Assembly (NCBI GenBank): GCA_017991555.1
Contig: JAGOQM010000008.1
Coordinates: forward strand, 124,001-188,000
Direction of reading: 5' to 3'
Length of the DNA stretch: 64,000 nt
Origin: Neisseriaceae bacterium
Lineage (GTDB): Bacteria > Pseudomonadota > Gammaproteobacteria > Burkholderiales > Neisseriaceae
Shown here: positions 8,164-49,196 of the stretch, piece after piece
Numbering within the stretch: position 1 is the first letter of the stretch
How the letters are laid out: every line of letters begins with the position of its first letter
Translations under genes and position numbers: made by a program
Notes under the pieces: model-generated
Told to the model about the DNA's origin: nothing
Seen by the model: only the letters and a program-made list of their open reading frames with translations
Database searches by the model: none

Positions 8164-8333
8164 CCCCACCGCCAACCATGGTTTTTAGTGCTTCGTAGCG
8201 TGAATCGCGACCCACGTCCCCTTTGGTTTACATGATCTCAGGCATTAAAGTTGGTGGGTAGGCTTCGTTTTACCACACCCTACTGCTACGGCTATCCAAG
8301 CGGATTGAAGTCACACCAAACCATGGTTTGGTG
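8164..8333. repeat. palindrome-bounded intergenic repeat block
   Basis: The block runs from an AACCATGGTT palindrome (8174-8183, followed by TTTAGTG) to a perfect 20-bp palindrome CACCAAACCATGGTTTGGTG (8314-8333). Between them lies a hairpin-prone GGTGGGTAGGCTTCG...CCACACCCTAC segment. That segment resembles the GGTGGG-type repetitive sequences scattered in many proteobacterial genomes. No gene is visible here. Confidence 0.6.
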
Positions 8334-40570: not shown

Positions 40571-41584
40571 TTATTTATAATTGATTCGGTAAATCAAGCT
40601 GGCGTTGAATGGGCCTACCTTTACCTCTCGTCCAGGTATTTTCGTCAGCTTGGCTTCAAAGGTTTTGTCCGCAAAATTATTGCCACTAAACGACACAAAA
40701 GGATAATACTTACCAAAATCCACGCGCTTACCCTGATCGTAAATCCCAATTTGGAGGCCATTATTGAGGTCTAAAAACTGATTATTGACGGTGGCCATCT
40801 TGGGGTCGAGGCGTAAATCAATGCTAAAGGTGTCGGCACAACCACGGCGCACGGCCCGAAGCGTAAAGTTGCGGGTTAGTTCGCCCTGGCTACTAAAATT
40901 GGCGAGGTGTTGCGACCCAAAGTCCACGTCTTGGTTTTCTGGTAAGACGGACACATCCGCCCCACAGGCCAAGAATTTAATGTTGCGCAGGTTGGTCAGG
41001 TCATAACGTAGGTTGGTGCCTTGGACGATGTTCACGCCCTTCACCCCATCAAACTGAAACGCCTGAAACACATTGGGGCCAGCGTAGTTGCCGGTAATAG
41101 GCCGCTCCGCATTGTTGGGCAGCCGGGTCGTTTTTAAATACAGTCGAAACGACACCGGCACGTCGATCCAAGTCGGGCCTTGTGAGGCAATACGGTAGAC
41201 GGTACGGCCGGTATCAAACCGCGCCGATGGGTTGTCTAAGTCTTGCTGAACGGGGCTAATCACTTCAAGACCAAAAGCCAAGCCTGAGGCAGAATCCAAG
41301 TTTGGCCCTCGCGGGTTAAAGTAGAAATAAACGTTTTCATACACCACGTTTTTTTGAACCCGACCACAGTGGGCGGTCACGTTGATGATTTCTGATTCCC
41401 ATATTTTGGTGCCGATGGGGGTGTCCGCAGGAATGCCCAAAGGGCTAATCATGATTTGTTCCAGCGCATTTTGTGCGCCCGAGGTGGCCCCGTTTTTATA
41501 ACAATCTAAGGCCCAGGCCGAAGGCACAGCGCCAAAAAATAAGGCTAGGAATAGGCCTCCGTACTGCTTTAGATAATGCATCAT
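40571..41584 (-). CDS. fimbrial tip adhesin, two-domain
   Basis: This 337-residue secreted protein is predicted to sit at the fimbrial tip and bind the host or surface ligand. A signal peptide ends GAVPSAWA. A unique N-terminal domain (about 25-195), with Cys in LDCYKNG and VTAHCGRV, would be the lectin part. The C-terminal half (FLACGADVSVLPENQDVDFG, then RRGCADTFSIDL and ASLIYRINYK) is a pilin domain with the disulfide pair and the penultimate Tyr expected for donor-strand exchange. The start at 41584 overlaps the upstream chaperone stop (ATGA), with GAGGA 6 bases before it. It is last in the operon, the usual adhesin place. Confidence 0.8.
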   Translation of the reverse strand: MMHYLKQYGGLFLALFFGAVPSAWALDCYKNGATSGAQNALEQIMISPLGIPADTPIGTKIWESEIINVTAHCGRVQKNVVYENVYFYFNPRGPNLDSASGLAFGLEVISPVQQDLDNPSARFDTGRTVYRIASQGPTWIDVPVSFRLYLKTTRLPNNAERPITGNYAGPNVFQAFQFDGVKGVNIVQGTNLRYDLTNLRNIKFLACGADVSVLPENQDVDFGSQHLANFSSQGELTRNFTLRAVRRGCADTFSIDLRLDPKMATVNNQFLDLNNGLQIGIYDQGKRVDFGKYYPFVSFSGNNFADKTFEAKLTKIPGREVKVGPFNASLIYRINYK

Positions 41585-42348
41585 TTCGTATCCTCTTCTG
41601 GTGTCATCAGCTGACAGGATGATTGCCGGCAATCATAGGTCAAGGGTCGAGCGCCACCAAAATCATCCATATAACGTAGGTAAACCTGCGCTTGCGTTGC
41701 TCTGGGTGCCTGATAGGTGGTGGATGAATAGGGTTTTAAAACCAACTCTGAAAATTCGGCAAACGGTGCCGCCTCGCTGTCTCCCAAAGTGGCAATCACG
41801 ATGTGGTAAGGCGTTGGGTTGTCAAACACCAGCTCAGGCCCCAAAACACGAATCGTCATTTGGCGCTGCCACGGCATTGAGGTACCTTTAGACAGGCCCT
41901 TGGGCCGATAAAACAGCTTTAAGCGTGATTGAAAAGCGATTTGCAACACATTGTCACGCTCGCTTTTGGGCGGTACTTCCAAGACGTTCAAATAAAACAA
42001 CGACTCTCGGTCTTGCACCAAGGTGCTTTCGGCGCCAATGCTGGTCACCTGGACCAACGCCATGCCGTTAGGCTCGATACGCTGCAAGGGTGGCAAGGCC
42101 AACAAGGGCCCAGACATTTTTTCGCCGCCTTCGGTTTCCACCCATGACTGCAATAAATAAGGCTTTGCTTGACCATTAACCGCCATAATGCTCACCGATC
42201 GCTCTGTGCCTTCTAAAATCATGCGCGTCCGGTCTAGGTTAACCGAGGCGCTGGCGGGCAAGGCCAGAATGCTCAACCACACACAGCCAAGGATGGTGCT
42301 TAAGGCTTGGCGGCACCAGCCCAGACGATGAGGTTTGTTTATGGTCAT
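41581..42348 (-). CDS. fimbrial periplasmic chaperone (second)
   Basis: This PapD-like chaperone of 255 residues carries fimbrial subunits to the usher. It has a signal peptide (WLSILALPASA) and the G1-strand-forming N-terminal immunoglobulin domain starting VNLDRTRMILEGTERSVSIMAVN. It also has the family signature DRESLFYLNVLEVPPKS and LPPLQRIEPNG (subunit-anchoring Arg region). Start codons are possible at 42363, 42351 or 42348; the last has GGGA 6 bases before it. Placed between a minor pilin and the adhesin, it may serve those two subunits specifically. Confidence 0.87.
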   Translation of the reverse strand: MTINKPHRLGWCRQALSTILGCVWLSILALPASASVNLDRTRMILEGTERSVSIMAVNGQAKPYLLQSWVETEGGEKMSGPLLALPPLQRIEPNGMALVQVTSIGAESTLVQDRESLFYLNVLEVPPKSERDNVLQIAFQSRLKLFYRPKGLSKGTSMPWQRQMTIRVLGPELVFDNPTPYHIVIATLGDSEAAPFAEFSELVLKPYSSTTYQAPRATQAQVYLRYMDDFGGARPLTYDCRQSSCQLMTPEEDTK

Positions 42349-42374
42349 CATTAATCCCAGCATGAATAATAGTC

Positions 42375-42998
42375 TTACAAATAGCTCAGTCGCACATTGA
42401 CGACGGCGCTAAATGCGCCCGCTCTGACTGCGGCCTGAGTGGACTCTAAATCGGCAAAAAACACCAGCGTTTGCGCACCGGGCGCCAGTACATACGCCCG
42501 ATTCGGCTCGTTCATGTTGAATGAGCGGCCAGCTTCGTCACTAAAATGCACCCCGACGCCGACGGCTTCACCAGACCCAGACACTTTTAATAACTTTAGG
42601 TTTCGCTCGTCAGGCTCTCCCACTAGGGTCATCACCACGGCTGACTGCCCGTTTAAAAATCGGTCCGTATTCACACCCTGTGCCAGCGTTTCCAATACTT
42701 GCAGCCGCTGTTTGGGGGGCTCTTGGTTATACGCCCCAATCAGGCAGCCCGTAAAATGCAATTGAAACGGTACTTTTTCGCTTCGAATGCCGGCCTTAGT
42801 CATGCTTTTGGCGCTGATGACTCCGAGGTCGACGCTTTGGGTGGCGGTGTTCATGCTTAACTGGCAGGTGCTGCCTAACAGCACGCCTTGTATCCGAATC
42901 TCCCCCATCGTGCCTGAGATCACCTCATTCGGTAGGGGCGCCGCTGTCGCAAAGCCAACCGACAACAGGGCAGAGATTAAACAACAGAGCTTACGCAT
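42375..42998 (-). CDS. minor fimbrial subunit
   Basis: This 207-residue secreted protein has a signal peptide (LISALLSVGFATA) and an N-terminal extension. A pilin fold follows, with the conserved disulfide Cys residues in VLLGSTCQLSM and LHFTGCLIG, and a C-terminal VNVRLSYL beta-strand with the penultimate Tyr. It probably works as a tip adaptor or initiator. The first in-frame codon is a GTG at 43001, but AAGGA is spaced properly for the ATG at 42998. Confidence 0.82.
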   Translation of the reverse strand: MRKLCCLISALLSVGFATAAPLPNEVISGTMGEIRIQGVLLGSTCQLSMNTATQSVDLGVISAKSMTKAGIRSEKVPFQLHFTGCLIGAYNQEPPKQRLQVLETLAQGVNTDRFLNGQSAVVMTLVGEPDERNLKLLKVSGSGEAVGVGVHFSDEAGRSFNMNEPNRAYVLAPGAQTLVFFADLESTQAAVRAGAFSAVVNVRLSYL

Positions 42999-43029
42999 CA
43001 CAATTCCTTCTCAAGAGGGTCACGCCTGA

Positions 43030-43782
43030 TCAATCCTGCGCGTCATCGGGCTTAGCCACACAACGTTCGCTGGCATCACACTCAAACTTAAGTTCGGGGT
43101 GGCCGCCATAGTCGTTGATGTAACTCAAGACGAATGAGCTGGGGACGTTGGTATTGAGCTTAATTTGCTCGCTGGCAAAAGGCGCCAGCATGAGGCCAGA
43201 AAACCCGGCTAGGTCTTTGCCATTGCGGGCTCGAAAATCACTCGCTAGGCCAGTCATCACAATGTGGAACGGGGTGGGGTTTTCAACCGTCAGCAGCTGG
43301 CCTGACTTTTGAAAGGTCAGCCGCTGTTGCCACACCACCCGTTTGTCTAACACGATGCTTTGGGGCCGATAAAACAGCTTAACCTTGGTGTGTAAGGCCA
43401 GCTGCAACACGTTGGCCTGCTGGCTTTTGGGTGGAATTTCACGCACGTTAAAATAGAACAGGCTTTCACGGTCTTGCGGCAGCAGGCTCACGTCAGGCAT
43501 CGCGCTCACGCGCACCACGCTTCTACTGCCAGGCTCTAAACGCTGTAGCGGCGGCAGCGCCACCAAAGGTGAGGTGATTTTTTGATACTGCTCGTCTTCC
43601 AACCATGACTGCGCCAAAAATGGCAGTTCCTTATTGTCATTGTTTAAGTTAACGCTCACAGACCTCATGTCACCCTCGTAAATCACTCGGGTGCGGTCGA
43701 TGGTGACCGCGGCTTGCGCCCATTGATTGGTGATGAGTAACAGCAGGGCTAGTGCCCCTAAATATTGCCAAAACTTTTGCAT
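43030..43782 (-). CDS. fimbrial periplasmic chaperone (first)
   Basis: This 250-residue PapD-like chaperone has a signal peptide ending WAQA, then AVTIDRTRVIYEGDMRSVSVNLNN, ALPPLQRLEPGSRSVVRVS and the chaperone signature DRESLFYFNVREIPPKS. Two C-terminal Cys (FECDASERCV) form a likely disulfide, as in PapD. It follows the usher and probably handles the main rod subunits. It is clearly related to, but distinct from, the second chaperone. Confidence 0.92.
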   Translation of the reverse strand: MQKFWQYLGALALLLLITNQWAQAAVTIDRTRVIYEGDMRSVSVNLNNDNKELPFLAQSWLEDEQYQKITSPLVALPPLQRLEPGSRSVVRVSAMPDVSLLPQDRESLFYFNVREIPPKSQQANVLQLALHTKVKLFYRPQSIVLDKRVVWQQRLTFQKSGQLLTVENPTPFHIVMTGLASDFRARNGKDLAGFSGLMLAPFASEQIKLNTNVPSSFVLSYINDYGGHPELKFECDASERCVAKPDDAQD

Positions 43783-43811: not shown

Positions 43812-46286
43812 TTATTGACAGGATAAAGTGGTGCTGGCAAAGGTCACGCTGGCCACCGGTACCGTAATTTGGCACTGTGGCTCGCCCCCCCATACCACAC
43901 TGAGCTGCTCGCCTTCTTCTACGCCAGACAAGTAGGCCAAGCCCGACTCGCCGACGATGGCAATGGTGCGGCCACTTTGATTGGTCACCACCGCCCCAAA
44001 CGGCGGCTGCGTTTGGCCATCATCAAGGTCGATGGTGGCCAATAGCTTCTGCCCTTTCACCACGGCCATTTTGCGATAGCCAATGGCTCCTTCGGTTAAG
44101 GTGCCGCTTAGCACGGCGCTGGGCGCATCCACATCATCCGCCAGGCGGTTAATGTCAATTTGGGTCACGCTGTCGGCATAGCTCACAACATTGGGGATGA
44201 CTGCTTTTCCAAAATAGTTGGTCCGTACGCTGCTGTTGCTAATGGGCACGCCCGCGACCTTACCGGTGTCTACCAACACTCGGGCGCCTCCGTTCACCCC
44301 ATCCGGATGCAACGCCACCCCTTTAAGCGTGGCCGTAATGCCGCCACGAATGTCTAAAGCCACACTCTTATAGCCTTTGTCCTGCCAATCGGCGTTAACG
44401 CCAATCGAAGCCAGGCTGGTGTCGCGGTTATAATAACCACGCAAATTGGCCTTTTTGTCCGAGTTCACCCCAGCAGCCACCTGCCAAGACGTGTGATCGC
44501 GGCCGCCGCTAAGGGTGGCACTGTGGTTCAGCTTGCCGTCACTGTTTTGGAGGCTATAACCCACGTTCATGCGCTGTGGCGTGTCCAGCGGCACGGACAC
44601 ATTCAACATAAAGCCTTTAAAGGTGTCGTCATACTGTTTGGTTTGATACGCATTCACGCTCACCGACACGCCCTTCACGCCACCCACGTCAAACATCTTG
44701 CTGGCCGATAGGCTAATGCGATCACGATCGTCATCATTCCAATAGGTCTGTTTGGTTAAGCTTAGGTAGGCCGTTAGGGCTTTTTTACGGTCCAGCGGCC
44801 AAAAGGTTTTACTCGCGGTGAGGGTGTACAGTTCTTTGTCTCGACGAAACGCATCACGCTCGCTGTTGTAGGCATCCAAGAACTGCGACACGGTCATGAA
44901 TTGGCGTTGAGAAAAGCGATAGCCGGCAAAGGTAATTTGCCCATGGAGCTCATCAAACCGTTTGGCGTAGTTCAGGCGAAAGGAATGGCCGCTCACTGAT
45001 TGGCCGTCTGGCAGCTTCGCCGTTGAACGGGTGACGTCGGCAGAAACAGCGCCAAACACCGCTAAGTCTCGGCCCACGCCCATCGCCACGGCTTGATAAT
45101 CTTGGCTGCCCACGGCACCACCAAATAAAGACCAGCTGTTGCTCACCCCCCAAGAGAAATCGGCGGTGGCAATCATGGGGCCTTCAATATGGTGGTCCAT
45201 ATTGGCGGGCCGCCCAAGCGAAACGTTGTAACGCAGCTGCCCCGGCCGGGTTAAATAAGGCACGTTGGCGGTGCCAATTTCGAAGGTTTCAATGCGGCCA
45301 TCGTCGCCTTCAACGGTGACCAACAGCTTACCGCGTACGGCACTGCTTAAATCTTGAATCAAGAAGGGGCCGGTGGGCACGGTGGTTTTGTAAATCACGC
45401 GCCCGTCTTGGCTAACCGTCACCGTCGAATTACTGGTGGCCACGCCCTGAACCTGAGGCGCATAGCCTTGTAGCGATGGCGGCAACATGCGCTCATCGGT
45501 ACGAATATTGGCCCCTAGGTAACGGTAGCCGTCAAACAGGTCAGACTCTAAGTATTGCTCACCCACGGTCAGCCGAGCGGCTATTTTAGGCAGCGCTCGA
45601 TAGGCATAGATCTGACTCCATTTGAAATCTCGTTCCGACTTGCCGCTGTAGCGATAGTCGCTCGCTTGATAGTCTGCGCGCAGGCGCCAGGGCCCTGCGT
45701 TCGCGCCTACGGTGCCATAAACGCTAAAGTCACGATTGGTCTCTCCGCCCTCCATCTTGCTGATGCGGGAGGTGAAATTGTAGTCAATTAAAACCCCGGG
45801 AATGCCTTCGTCCCATAGCTCCGGCGGCGTCCAGTCTGGGTCGTCATACTTTAACCAGGCCTGTGGCACGTTGATGCGTATCGCGGCATCATTAAGGCTG
45901 CCGATGACGGTCACGCCTTCAATATCGCTTAGGTCAACGCACTCGCCATCTTCTGATACTTTAACCTTGGCTTGCACCTCATCTTTAAGCAACATCTTGG
46001 GAATAATGCTTAAAGGTAAGCATGCTTGGCTCTGATTGGGTGCGCCCGCAACAGCACGGTATTCAATGCTCTGCTGTGGCAATACCCGCTTATTAATGTA
46101 CACGTCTAACACATAAGTGCCAGGCATCACGTAGCCGGCTTCTGAGAATCGGCTTAAATCAACGTCATTACGCTCATCTACGTCTAGAATGTCGGTATTA
46201 AATTCAACGGCATGCGCATAAGGCGCACCGAGCCCTATGGCCACGCAGGCGGAAAGCACGTTCATTCTGGGAATAAAATAAGCCAT
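43812..46286 (-). CDS. outer membrane usher protein of chaperone-usher fimbriae
   Basis: This 824-residue usher translocates and polymerises fimbrial subunits. It has a signal peptide (to AHA near residue 26) and an N-terminal periplasmic domain, VEFNTDILDVDERNDVDLSRFSEAGYVMPGTYVLDVYINK, which receives chaperone-subunit complexes. The 24-strand barrel contains a plug (RMLPPSLQGYAPQVQGVATSNSTVTVSQDGRVIYKTTVPTGPF). C-terminal domains follow, with a terminal Cys pair (EPQCQITV and TTLSCQ). The length is normal for the PapC type. All key parts are present, so the system looks functional. Confidence 0.95.
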   Translation of the reverse strand: MAYFIPRMNVLSACVAIGLGAPYAHAVEFNTDILDVDERNDVDLSRFSEAGYVMPGTYVLDVYINKRVLPQQSIEYRAVAGAPNQSQACLPLSIIPKMLLKDEVQAKVKVSEDGECVDLSDIEGVTVIGSLNDAAIRINVPQAWLKYDDPDWTPPELWDEGIPGVLIDYNFTSRISKMEGGETNRDFSVYGTVGANAGPWRLRADYQASDYRYSGKSERDFKWSQIYAYRALPKIAARLTVGEQYLESDLFDGYRYLGANIRTDERMLPPSLQGYAPQVQGVATSNSTVTVSQDGRVIYKTTVPTGPFLIQDLSSAVRGKLLVTVEGDDGRIETFEIGTANVPYLTRPGQLRYNVSLGRPANMDHHIEGPMIATADFSWGVSNSWSLFGGAVGSQDYQAVAMGVGRDLAVFGAVSADVTRSTAKLPDGQSVSGHSFRLNYAKRFDELHGQITFAGYRFSQRQFMTVSQFLDAYNSERDAFRRDKELYTLTASKTFWPLDRKKALTAYLSLTKQTYWNDDDRDRISLSASKMFDVGGVKGVSVSVNAYQTKQYDDTFKGFMLNVSVPLDTPQRMNVGYSLQNSDGKLNHSATLSGGRDHTSWQVAAGVNSDKKANLRGYYNRDTSLASIGVNADWQDKGYKSVALDIRGGITATLKGVALHPDGVNGGARVLVDTGKVAGVPISNSSVRTNYFGKAVIPNVVSYADSVTQIDINRLADDVDAPSAVLSGTLTEGAIGYRKMAVVKGQKLLATIDLDDGQTQPPFGAVVTNQSGRTIAIVGESGLAYLSGVEEGEQLSVVWGGEPQCQITVPVASVTFASTTLSCQ

Positions 46287-46337: not shown

Positions 46338-46862
46338 TTAAAAATATGACACTATAAACTGCAGCGTGGCGGCAAAATGGCCTGCACGCGCTTCGCGTTG
46401 ATTAATGCGCAGCTCAGTAAAAAAGCGTAGGGTGTTGTCGCCTTCGACGATTTCATAATCGCTTAAGGTTTTACCCAAACTGATTTTTTGGCGCTGCTGA
46501 TTAAGTAAAGAAAGATGAACCCCTTTGGCCTCGCCTTGTAGCCCAATCTGATCGGGATAGGTGGCGTCTCGCATGCCGTAAAAGGCGACCTGTGCCAGAG
46601 AAAAACCAGGCTGATCCTTGCGGGCCAGTTCACAATCAACCAGCTGAATTTTGACTTCACGTTGAGGCTGTGTCGTCGCGGTTGCATTGATGTCGCCTAA
46701 GTCAATCAGCTGATGCTGGCTTTCCATGGCCAAACCACACGGCACCACCACAATTTCACCACCAAAGTCGACTTTACCCCGCCCCATATTTTGGGCAGAC
46801 GCTTCGGTCGCTGCGACTAAAAACAGAAACAGGCTGAAATAAACCCTTATTTTGGTGCGCAT
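46338..46862 (-). CDS. fimbrial subunit (minor pilin, possible rod terminator)
   Basis: This 174-residue pilin has a signal peptide ending TEASA, then QNMGRGKVDFGGEIVVVPCGLAMES (donor-strand extension and first Cys) and VQIQLVDCELA-like KIQLVDCEL (second Cys). It ends AATLQFIVSYF. It is second in the operon, where PapH-like terminators or minor subunits are found. AGGAGG 4 bases before the ATG at 46862 is the strongest ribosome site in the operon and lies just behind a terminator-like hairpin. Confidence 0.85.
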   Translation of the reverse strand: MRTKIRVYFSLFLFLVAATEASAQNMGRGKVDFGGEIVVVPCGLAMESQHQLIDLGDINATATTQPQREVKIQLVDCELARKDQPGFSLAQVAFYGMRDATYPDQIGLQGEAKGVHLSLLNQQRQKISLGKTLSDYEIVEGDNTLRFFTELRINQREARAGHFAATLQFIVSYF

Positions 46863-46872
46863 GAGTCCTCCT

Positions 46873-46904
46873 AAAAAGCACGGTATGAATGGCTCATACC
46901 GTGC
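46873..46904 (-). terminator. terminator-like hairpin between the first two pilin genes
   Basis: GCACGGTATGA (46878-46888) pairs perfectly with TCATACCGTGC (46894-46904) around 5 bases. On the minus strand five T follow (46877-46873), directly before the AGGAGG of the next pilin. It should end or protect many transcripts after the major pilin gene, letting some read through. Confidence 0.8.
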
Positions 46905-46920
46905 CTGACAAACCAAGCGG

Positions 46921-47445
46921 TTATTTGTACTCTAAGGCGAAAGTAGAAACGGCGGTGAAGCTACCTGGCGTCACGTCAGAAGCGGCGTCAGAACCTTGTA
47001 GTTGTGCGAAGAAACGCAAAATGTTGCCATTGCCTTCTTGAAGGGTTTTGAAGGCTTCGGCTTGGCCAAGCTTAACCAGTTGGTTAGAGGCGTTGGTCAA
47101 ACGAATGCCGGCGCCTTTAGCCGAGCCGTTAATGGCCAATAGATCGGCGTTGGTGTCTGGCGCACCGTCAAAAGTAATCGACACTGTTTTCAGGGTTTCA
47201 GTGCTGCATTCTTTTAGCTCAATGTTAATCGGGTTTTGCGTATTGGCAATTTTGCCATTGTTCAATTCTTTATTGCTAACCTGGCCCATTTCAATGGTTT
47301 GGTTCGCATTTTGATAGTCCAAAGTACACGGCGCATCAATGATTTCGCCTTTAAAATTAATGGTGCCCGTACCTTGACCAGCAGCAAACGTCACGGTCGC
47401 AAAACCAGAGGCCAACAACAGTGCAACCAACTTATTGATTTTCAT
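46921..47445 (-). CDS. major fimbrial subunit (type 1-like pilin)
   Basis: This is the rod-forming subunit, 174 residues. A signal peptide ends TVTFA. Then come AGQGTGTINFKGEIIDAPCTLDY (donor strand and first Cys), NIELKECSTETLKTVSITFDG (second Cys) and a C-terminal TAVSTFALEYK with the penultimate Tyr. Composition is Thr, Asn and Ala-rich, as for exported rod pilins. The frame opens 9 codons earlier, but AAGGA is correctly spaced for the ATG at 47445. It is first in the seven-gene operon and followed by a hairpin, which fits high expression. Confidence 0.9.
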   Translation of the reverse strand: MKINKLVALLLASGFATVTFAAGQGTGTINFKGEIIDAPCTLDYQNANQTIEMGQVSNKELNNGKIANTQNPINIELKECSTETLKTVSITFDGAPDTNADLLAINGSAKGAGIRLTNASNQLVKLGQAEAFKTLQEGNGNILRFFAQLQGSDAASDVTPGSFTAVSTFALEYK

Positions 47446-47658: not shown

Positions 47659-48009
47659 TTAAACGTCTAGGATAGACATATCCTCTGCCGCGAACACCTG
47701 TTTAATTTCGTAGATTGATTTATCTCCAATTGAGGGCAACGCCCTTAATGCAGACTCGCTCAAACCGGCTAACTGATGCACTTTATCAATGCCAGAACGC
47801 TTAAGTGCGCCCTTTGCTCGCCCTGAAATCGCCAGGTCAGCCACGCTGGTATTCATAAACGTCTTTTTTTCGCCATAGGCATCCTGAGCAGTAATACGGG
47901 GAAAGGGCTGCCAACACCCCTTCTGAAAATCCATTTTCCAGACGGTGCCGTCTTCACATAAAGCAGCCAGTAAACCGTTTACGCCAACAATGGAGATGAT
48001 CTTACCCAC
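47659..48009 (-). CDS. small protein with RNA polymerase alpha-CTD-like domain
   Basis: This 116-residue protein starts at GTG, with AAGGAG 6 bases before it. Residues 1-45 form a short beta-rich part (KIISIVGVNGLLAALCEDGTVWKMD) that I do not recognise. Residues 57-116 align without gaps to the C-terminal domain of RNA polymerase alpha. The DNA-contact residues of E. coli alpha have clear counterparts: R265 as R64, G296 as G95, K298 as K97, S299 as S98 and E302 as E101, while N268 is Gly. It has no alpha N-terminal domain, so it cannot assemble polymerase. It may bind A+T-rich promoter DNA or compete with alpha. It lies about 210 bases upstream of the fimbrial operon, in the same direction. 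Confidence 0.75.
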   Translation of the reverse strand: MGKIISIVGVNGLLAALCEDGTVWKMDFQKGCWQPFPRITAQDAYGEKKTFMNTSVADLAISGRAKGALKRSGIDKVHQLAGLSESALRALPSIGDKSIYEIKQVFAAEDMSILDV

Positions 48010-49196
48010 CCTCTACTCCTTGGAATGAAAGCCAAACTAAAAATAAACGCTTAACCTGTAAAGTAAAAATGAAACACTAATCATCATTTGAGCGCCATTC
48101 GTTCGTATTAATTTTAGGCGTCCAAAACTTTAGGGCAACCTAGCTTGGTCATTCACTAGGCTACTCAGGCAATGACACTGTGCTTAACGAAGGGCATTCT
48201 AAGCGCGAAAATAGTAAAATAACGTTAATTAATTGGGGTATTGTGTAAATTTTAGAAAAATAGAGATAAATAAAGTTAATGAATGATAATAATTGTTTAA
48301 ACGCTGCTTTTTCCATCAATGAATACTGGGTTTTGGTTAAGTTATATTAACCAGCAAAGCGTCCTTTAATGAGAAAATGGGTGGCAACATAGGTAAATAC
48401 TGGCTATTACGGTATTTCACAGCCTTTTTTTAGCACCCAAATAAATGACAATGACCTTATTTCTGTTTAAAAAAATAGCCTAAAGTGGCCCATAAATCGG
48501 CCCAAAAACCACCAAAATATGTCGTCAGGGTTTAGGTTTCTTAACAAAAATATCATTTGTAAAGCGGAAGTAATGGGAACTAATTCACAATCCCACAACA
48601 TAGAAATACACCAGTATAAAATTGGGCCGCTAGGCCAAGCACAAAAACCATGATATTGCCCCTCATCCTATGGATAGGCCGCCCGCTTGCAGGCCAAATG
48701 AATGGTGTCGGCACTCGGATTAAAGCCAGCATATTTGCTTCCGAACACGCAAAAAATAGGCCCGACCTTAAAAAAATCAAATCCATAAACGGCCACCCAG
48801 TAGCCTCCCTGACCATCGGCACCGCCCTAAAAACGTACCATTTATGGTCCAGTTGCCATTAGGCCTTTAATCCACTTTTTGGGCCTGCCCTAGAAGCGGC
48901 TGAAACCAAGGACAGCCCTAGATTGAACGCGGCTTGAAATAAAAAATCAGTCGGATAAATAAGCGGTTACACCCGTTTAAAAATCAAGCATCACCGCCTT
49001 TAATGATCAACTTATGTGGCCTTGAACGGTATAATAACAAGGTGACCAATCGCCAATCAGCCCCACTCACCCGAGCTTCAACCCTTGCGCTTATCCTAAG
49101 CTAGGCCCTCGTTTAGCCCTCAACCAACGCTAGAGTGACCCGCTATAAGGCCGCAATCGCAAGCACGCTGATTGGCCCTCGTATCAGGAAGTCAAT
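48010..49196. other. long A+T-rich non-coding stretch
   Basis: About 1.2 kb without a supportable gene. It includes A/T-rich DNA (48220-48350), a Fur-box-like AATGATAATAATTGTT (48282-48297) that is not in front of any gene, and two short opposing reading frames (48580-48862) with no recognisable motif. A TATAAT with an upstream GG (49030-49035) may be a -10 box for the carboxylesterase, leaving a leader of about 160 bases. Confidence 0.5.

Follow-up and report, generated by a model that had tools for sequence, protein, structure and literature searches.

We describe a small protein, encoded beside a fimbrial operon in a member of the Neisseriaceae, that is a genuine RNA polymerase alpha C-terminal domain (alpha-CTD) without the alpha N-terminal domain, preceded by a short module that is modelled as a beta-propeller blade. 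From its sequence, its relatives and their gene neighbourhoods we suggest, with moderate confidence, that it acts locally as a DNA-binding regulator dedicated to the fimbrial operon to which its gene belongs. The gene lies in a stretch of 64,000 nucleotides, called the window here, to which all coordinates given without a locus name refer. The analysis adds three things to the initial annotation of this DNA: the genome contains paralogues of the gene, sister loci have promoters with inverted sites, and the N-terminal module has phage-type relatives.

Domain composition of the alpha-CTD protein

The gene and its parts are as follows.

47659..48009, minus strand: free-standing alpha-CTD-like protein, 116 aa, GTG start (open reading frame, Pfam, alignment, AlphaFold2 model)
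47695..47871, minus strand: alpha-CTD domain, residues 47-105 (PF03118, 44.1 bits; Z 13.0 to 1z3e_B)
47890..48009, minus strand: N-terminal module, residues 1-40, modelled as a four-stranded propeller-blade-like meander (AlphaFold2 pLDDT 92; structural matches; viral relatives)

An AAGGAG-like ribosome site stands directly 5' of the GTG start. The Pfam match of residues 47-105 to RNA_pol_A_CTD (PF03118) has an E-value of 1.7e-11, and its 44.1 bits compare with a curated cut-off of 23.8 bits. The initial annotation had described a gap-free alignment to alpha-CTD in which the UP-element contacts are kept, and both observations hold. The alignment with the E. coli alpha-CTD runs over 58 columns without a gap and has 20 identities, compared with 60 in 72 for the genome's own RpoA, and E. 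coli R265, G296, K298, S299 and E302 correspond to R64, G95, K97, S98 and E101. Five of the seven residues of the 265 determinant for DNA are kept, the two changes being N268 to G and N294 to S. The fold is that of the RpoA domain as well: in the AlphaFold2 model of the full protein (pLDDT 87.6), residues 48-114 superpose on the B. subtilis alpha-CTD 1z3e_B over 67 residues with a Z of 13.0 and an rmsd of 0.9 Å. A generic helix-hairpin-helix protein without the R64/K97/E101 surface, which had been named as the outcome that would speak against an alpha-CTD, can be ruled out, HHH_5 reaching 13.7 bits against the 44.1 bits of PF03118. Pfam gives no match to a LuxR-type HTH in the protein at E-values up to 1.

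The alpha N-terminal assembly domain is absent, as had also been claimed. The model shows a beta meander in residues 1-40, and the NCBIfam RpoA profiles, whose cut-offs are 227 bits or higher, cover the CTD alone and score no more than 41.5 bits. Compared with its orthologue at L041 the protein is 59% identical, with a pN of 0.26 and a pS of 0.75, and a pN so far below pS indicates that the protein is under selection. It nevertheless evolves faster than the operon beside it, in which the usher is 89% and the pilin 94% identical between the same two loci.

The model bears out the proposal of a separate beta-rich N-terminal module, with four antiparallel strands in residues 1-40. Pfam has no match to this module. 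Among the 50 VIA-align matches listed, its structural matches are mostly beta-propeller proteins with weak Z scores of 4.0-4.7, which can be explained by the piece being only 40 residues long. The module also resembles one repeat of an RCC1-like protein encoded at L055. Stand-alone relatives of 48-74 aa are found on the viral contigs L076, L078 and L079 (phrog_16915, E 7e-7 to 4e-6), and a comparable short open frame is seen at L077; in our family, unlike these viral proteins, the module is fused to an alpha-CTD. In another genome of the phylum a blade-like module is joined to a different short N-terminal domain (L083:1216-1596). The occurrence of the module alone on viral contigs and in this other fusion suggests that it is mobile and probably phage-derived. 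Judged by the model, it resembles a single propeller blade, through which several copies might oligomerise and perhaps close a ring. According to PMC6805158, WD40 pieces of one to six blades can build oligomeric propellers.

Association with fimbrial operons

Pfam matches of the neighbouring genes confirm that the chaperone-usher operon reported beside the gene is real. Its genes are listed in the order in which they follow the alpha-CTD gene.

46921..47445, minus strand: major pilin (PF00419), next gene downstream of the alpha-CTD gene (open reading frame, Pfam)
46338..46916, minus strand: second pilin-like subunit (PF00419) (Pfam)
43812..46286, minus strand: outer-membrane usher (PF00577, PF13954, PF13953) (Pfam)
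43030..43782, minus strand: PapD-type chaperone (Pfam)
42375..43001, minus strand: fimbrial subunit (PF00419) (Pfam)
41581..42363, minus strand: second PapD-type chaperone (Pfam)
40571..41632, minus strand: probable tip subunit (L041 counterpart matches PF00419)

The link proposed from this single locus is found again in the gene neighbourhoods of the homologues. Chaperone-usher genes adjoin the alpha-CTD gene in 15 of the 16 copies in the genus, and in 13 of the 16 it is the first gene, directly 5' of the major pilin. At L043 and L047 it comes after the last chaperone, at the operon end, and the L051 copy sits between purC-like and cytochrome-oxidase-like genes and not at a chaperone-usher locus. 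Two unrelated operon types carry the gene, the P-type, marked by PF00419, PF00345 and PF00577, and the ECP/Mat-type, marked by MatB, EcpB_C and CooC_C, of which one locus was scanned and the others are alike by gene order and CooC_C. All five ECP-type loci have the gene, in the place held by ecpR in E. coli (PMC5962669). A census of usher loci finds it at four of eight in genome G000, seven of ten in G002 (a split usher counted once) and four of seven in G003, so that each genome also has some chaperone-usher loci without it. Ten usher loci of about 12 kb in 3.3 Mb would place about 4% of a genome near one by chance, against 11 of the 12 distinct members observed there, and we therefore conclude that the link is not due to chance.

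The split usher belongs to L043 (G002:C1:956109-957781), whose operon ends in the alpha-CTD gene. It is spread over two frames in G002 and is in one frame in its G003 counterpart, and is either a broken gene or a sequencing error.

Taxonomic distribution of the family

The window's genome has six PF03118 genes, namely rpoA and five short ones, and two congeners carry seven and four short alpha-CTD genes. A fourth congener (81% complete) has no family member and a single usher. Searches of 79 other genomes of the taxonomic family, and of the genomes sampled from the order and phylum, gave no protein of the same build. In most genomes searched from the order there is a single PF03118 match, six being found only in the window's genome. 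When the full model was run against the phylum, the matches outside the window's genome looked like alpha subunits by their length and matched part. A free-standing alpha-CTD-like protein without the blade module does occur in another genome of the order (L075:7535-7885 in G028), with no recognisable fimbrial genes adjoining.

Matches in the collections of plasmids and phages are mostly limited to the alpha-CTD part. Two candidate matches from Listeria cover 95% of the query at 33% identity (E 2e-3). Tailed phages encode free-standing alpha-CTD proteins, several of them of about 98-149 aa in BFVD, that share the lack of an alpha N-terminal domain with our protein. They differ in that mainly the alpha-CTD part is matched, that no blade fusion was seen among them and that their setting is a phage and not a fimbrial operon. 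By the sequences sampled, the fusion of a blade-like module to a free-standing alpha-CTD is thus a genus-specific family. In the titles and abstract openings of the literature on alpha-CTD, fimbrial regulation and fimbrial phase variation we found no such protein, and the same is true of the titles and abstract openings on propeller blades.

The 12 distinct members align over their full length, with M1, I4, W24, W33, L80, G95 and K97 invariant. The ECP-associated members cluster together in the tree with a support of 92/95, and therefore each copy of the putative regulator seems to have diverged alongside its operon type.

Conservation of contact surfaces

Positions 265, 296, 298, 299 and 302 are R, G, K, S or T, and E in 11 of the 12 members; the L051 member lacks the R265 equivalent. 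Position 268 varies (G, R, N, K, C or D), as does position 294 (S, R, G or A). The positions that contact sigma (257-261, the 261 determinant) and CRP (285-288, the 287 determinant) in RpoA are mostly replaced, also in the protein of the window. Keeping the DNA determinant while mostly losing the sigma and CRP determinants favours DNA binding over an imitation of alpha's protein contacts, and mimicry of alpha, one of the roles first considered for this protein, is weakened accordingly. An isolated alpha-CTD is a weak DNA binder.

The same pattern bears on the question whether the protein competes with RNA polymerase alpha, occupying the A/T-rich upstream DNA used by the polymerase alpha-CTDs and thereby repressing fimbrial or other promoters. 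A conserved DNA determinant combined with mostly lost sigma and CRP contacts and no alpha N-terminal domain would suit such a competitor, but a general one would not need a dedicated copy per fimbrial operon, and the changed positions 268 and 294 suggest an altered site preference. We consider this role unlikely. Less probable again is an adaptor that does not bind DNA, whose alpha-CTD part would bind an activator or the polymerase and whose blade would bind another partner. Propeller blades often bind proteins. The alpha-CTD is also a protein-contact domain, for example with Spx (1z3e), but in this family the DNA-contact residues are among the best-kept parts of the domain and the known protein-contact determinants are not.

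Upstream DNA and inverted sites

Upstream of the alpha-CTD gene one non-coding region stands out.

48166..48245, minus strand: conserved non-coding block, candidate promoter/operator with a TAGAAT -10-like hexamer (identity to L041)

The block lies about 155-235 bp 5' of the start of the gene. In 40-column windows the identity to L041 is 70-75% at about 48166-48245 and about 35% from there to the gene start, and the conservation of the block beats 200 of 200 shuffles. The initial annotation had pointed to an A/T tract at 47.5 kb as the DNA target. Across species, little of this A/T-rich gap is conserved beyond the part that adjoins the start of the pilin gene, and the block at about 48166-48245 appears to be the better candidate site. 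No motif or operator common to all alpha-CTD loci was found. A shared operator of the form TTAACA-N15-TTTACA-N10/11-TATAAT is present in the three ECP promoters that defined it and elsewhere not above chance, and was rejected. Counter-silencing of H-NS was put aside because the three genomes have no PF00816 protein.

At five of the 12 distinct loci, not including that of the window, a segment of about 300 bp with inverted sites lies upstream of the alpha-CTD gene. These loci are L037/L045, L044/L050, L049, L042 and L038b, and the cores of the sites are AAACGRYCGTTT-like. The inverted-site pairs are located as follows.

L037:8569-8905
L050:13945-14284
L042:8470-8819
L049:4997-5323
L038, upstream of 19106

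A pattern search for inverted pairs in three genomes gave matches at alpha-CTD promoters only and none in the reversed control; the pairs at L042 and L049 have deviating cores and escape the pattern. Four of the five loci have a serine recombinase nearby, and therefore these promoters are probably invertible. These genomes have eight serine recombinase genes, of which seven are located by alpha-CTD fimbrial operons. The arrangement resembles Hin/Gin-type inversion systems and the fimS element of E. coli type 1 fimbriae in the inverted-site pair that precedes the operon, and the L037 recombinase has a resolvase HTH as in the Hin/Gin type. E. coli fim uses tyrosine recombinases. The likeness to these systems is limited to the sister loci, and the inverted orientation was not observed there, both orthologous pairs (L044/L050 and L037/L045, n=2) having the same orientation.

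The region upstream of the gene in the window has no inverted site pair, and at this locus and six other distinct ones neither a site pair nor a recombinase is present in the surrounding sequence examined. Since these seven loci have the protein all the same, it is very improbable that it assists the serine recombinase as an accessory factor, in synapsis or in biasing the orientation at inverted sites, even though site pairs at alpha-CTD promoters and recombinase genes by the same operons would agree with it.

Two further repeats were noted. The palindrome AAACCATGGTTT has four copies in the window, at 8318, 8985, 15001 and 31132, away from the region upstream of the alpha-CTD gene; for the broader pattern AAACSNNSGTTT, 0.51 matches are expected by chance. 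Tandem repeats at L037:13640-14649 and L045:247-1564, which translate as VHRRIGGLE / SPPHRRLRK, are probably a CRISPR array.

Proposed role in fimbrial regulation

A fusion of blade and alpha-CTD that comes first in many fimbria operons, some of them with a flippable-looking promoter, is probably a dedicated fimbria switch. As a local regulator, the protein would be the product made first from the fimbrial transcription unit. Its alpha-CTD would bind A/T-rich DNA at its own promoter region, and the blade would hold several copies together or bind a partner. The regulator would in this way set fimbrial transcription, as EcpR does in E. coli, and would be likelier to raise than to lower it, the direction being a guess. 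Its production at the sister loci would depend on the inverted-site promoter segment facing the operon, which would add feedback to an on/off switch. Several points speak against a local regulator, namely the changes of N268 and N294, the weak DNA binding of an isolated alpha-CTD, the positions of the L051, L043 and L047 copies, the usher loci without the gene and the lack of a common operator.

All local regulators known to us from fimbrial operons belong to the HTH, PilZ or recombinase proteins. EcpR is a LuxR-like HTH protein, whereas our protein has no HTH match in Pfam. What the two share is the first-gene position in an ECP-type operon, which ecpR holds in the E. coli operon ecpRABCDE, and PMC5962669 reports that EcpR/MatA acts through a positive autoregulatory circuit. 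In Klebsiella, alpha R265 and an A/T-rich UP element are both required for the activation of a fimbrial promoter, according to PMC3828302. This lends plausibility to alpha-CTD-type control at such a promoter and has no direct bearing on the protein described here.

A bolder form of this idea is that the family is a new class of transcription factor, in which the blades close into a homo-oligomeric ring whose several alpha-CTDs clamp A/T-rich promoter DNA, each copy being tuned to its own fimbrial operon by the changes at 268 and 294 and several being switched by promoter inversion. We put this forward tentatively and think it rather unlikely in this form. If the protein is indeed a local regulator, a core transcription domain would have been reused as a gene-specific switch dedicated to two unrelated types of fimbrial operon, and the family would offer a dozen natural variants for asking what an alpha-CTD needs to choose DNA alone.
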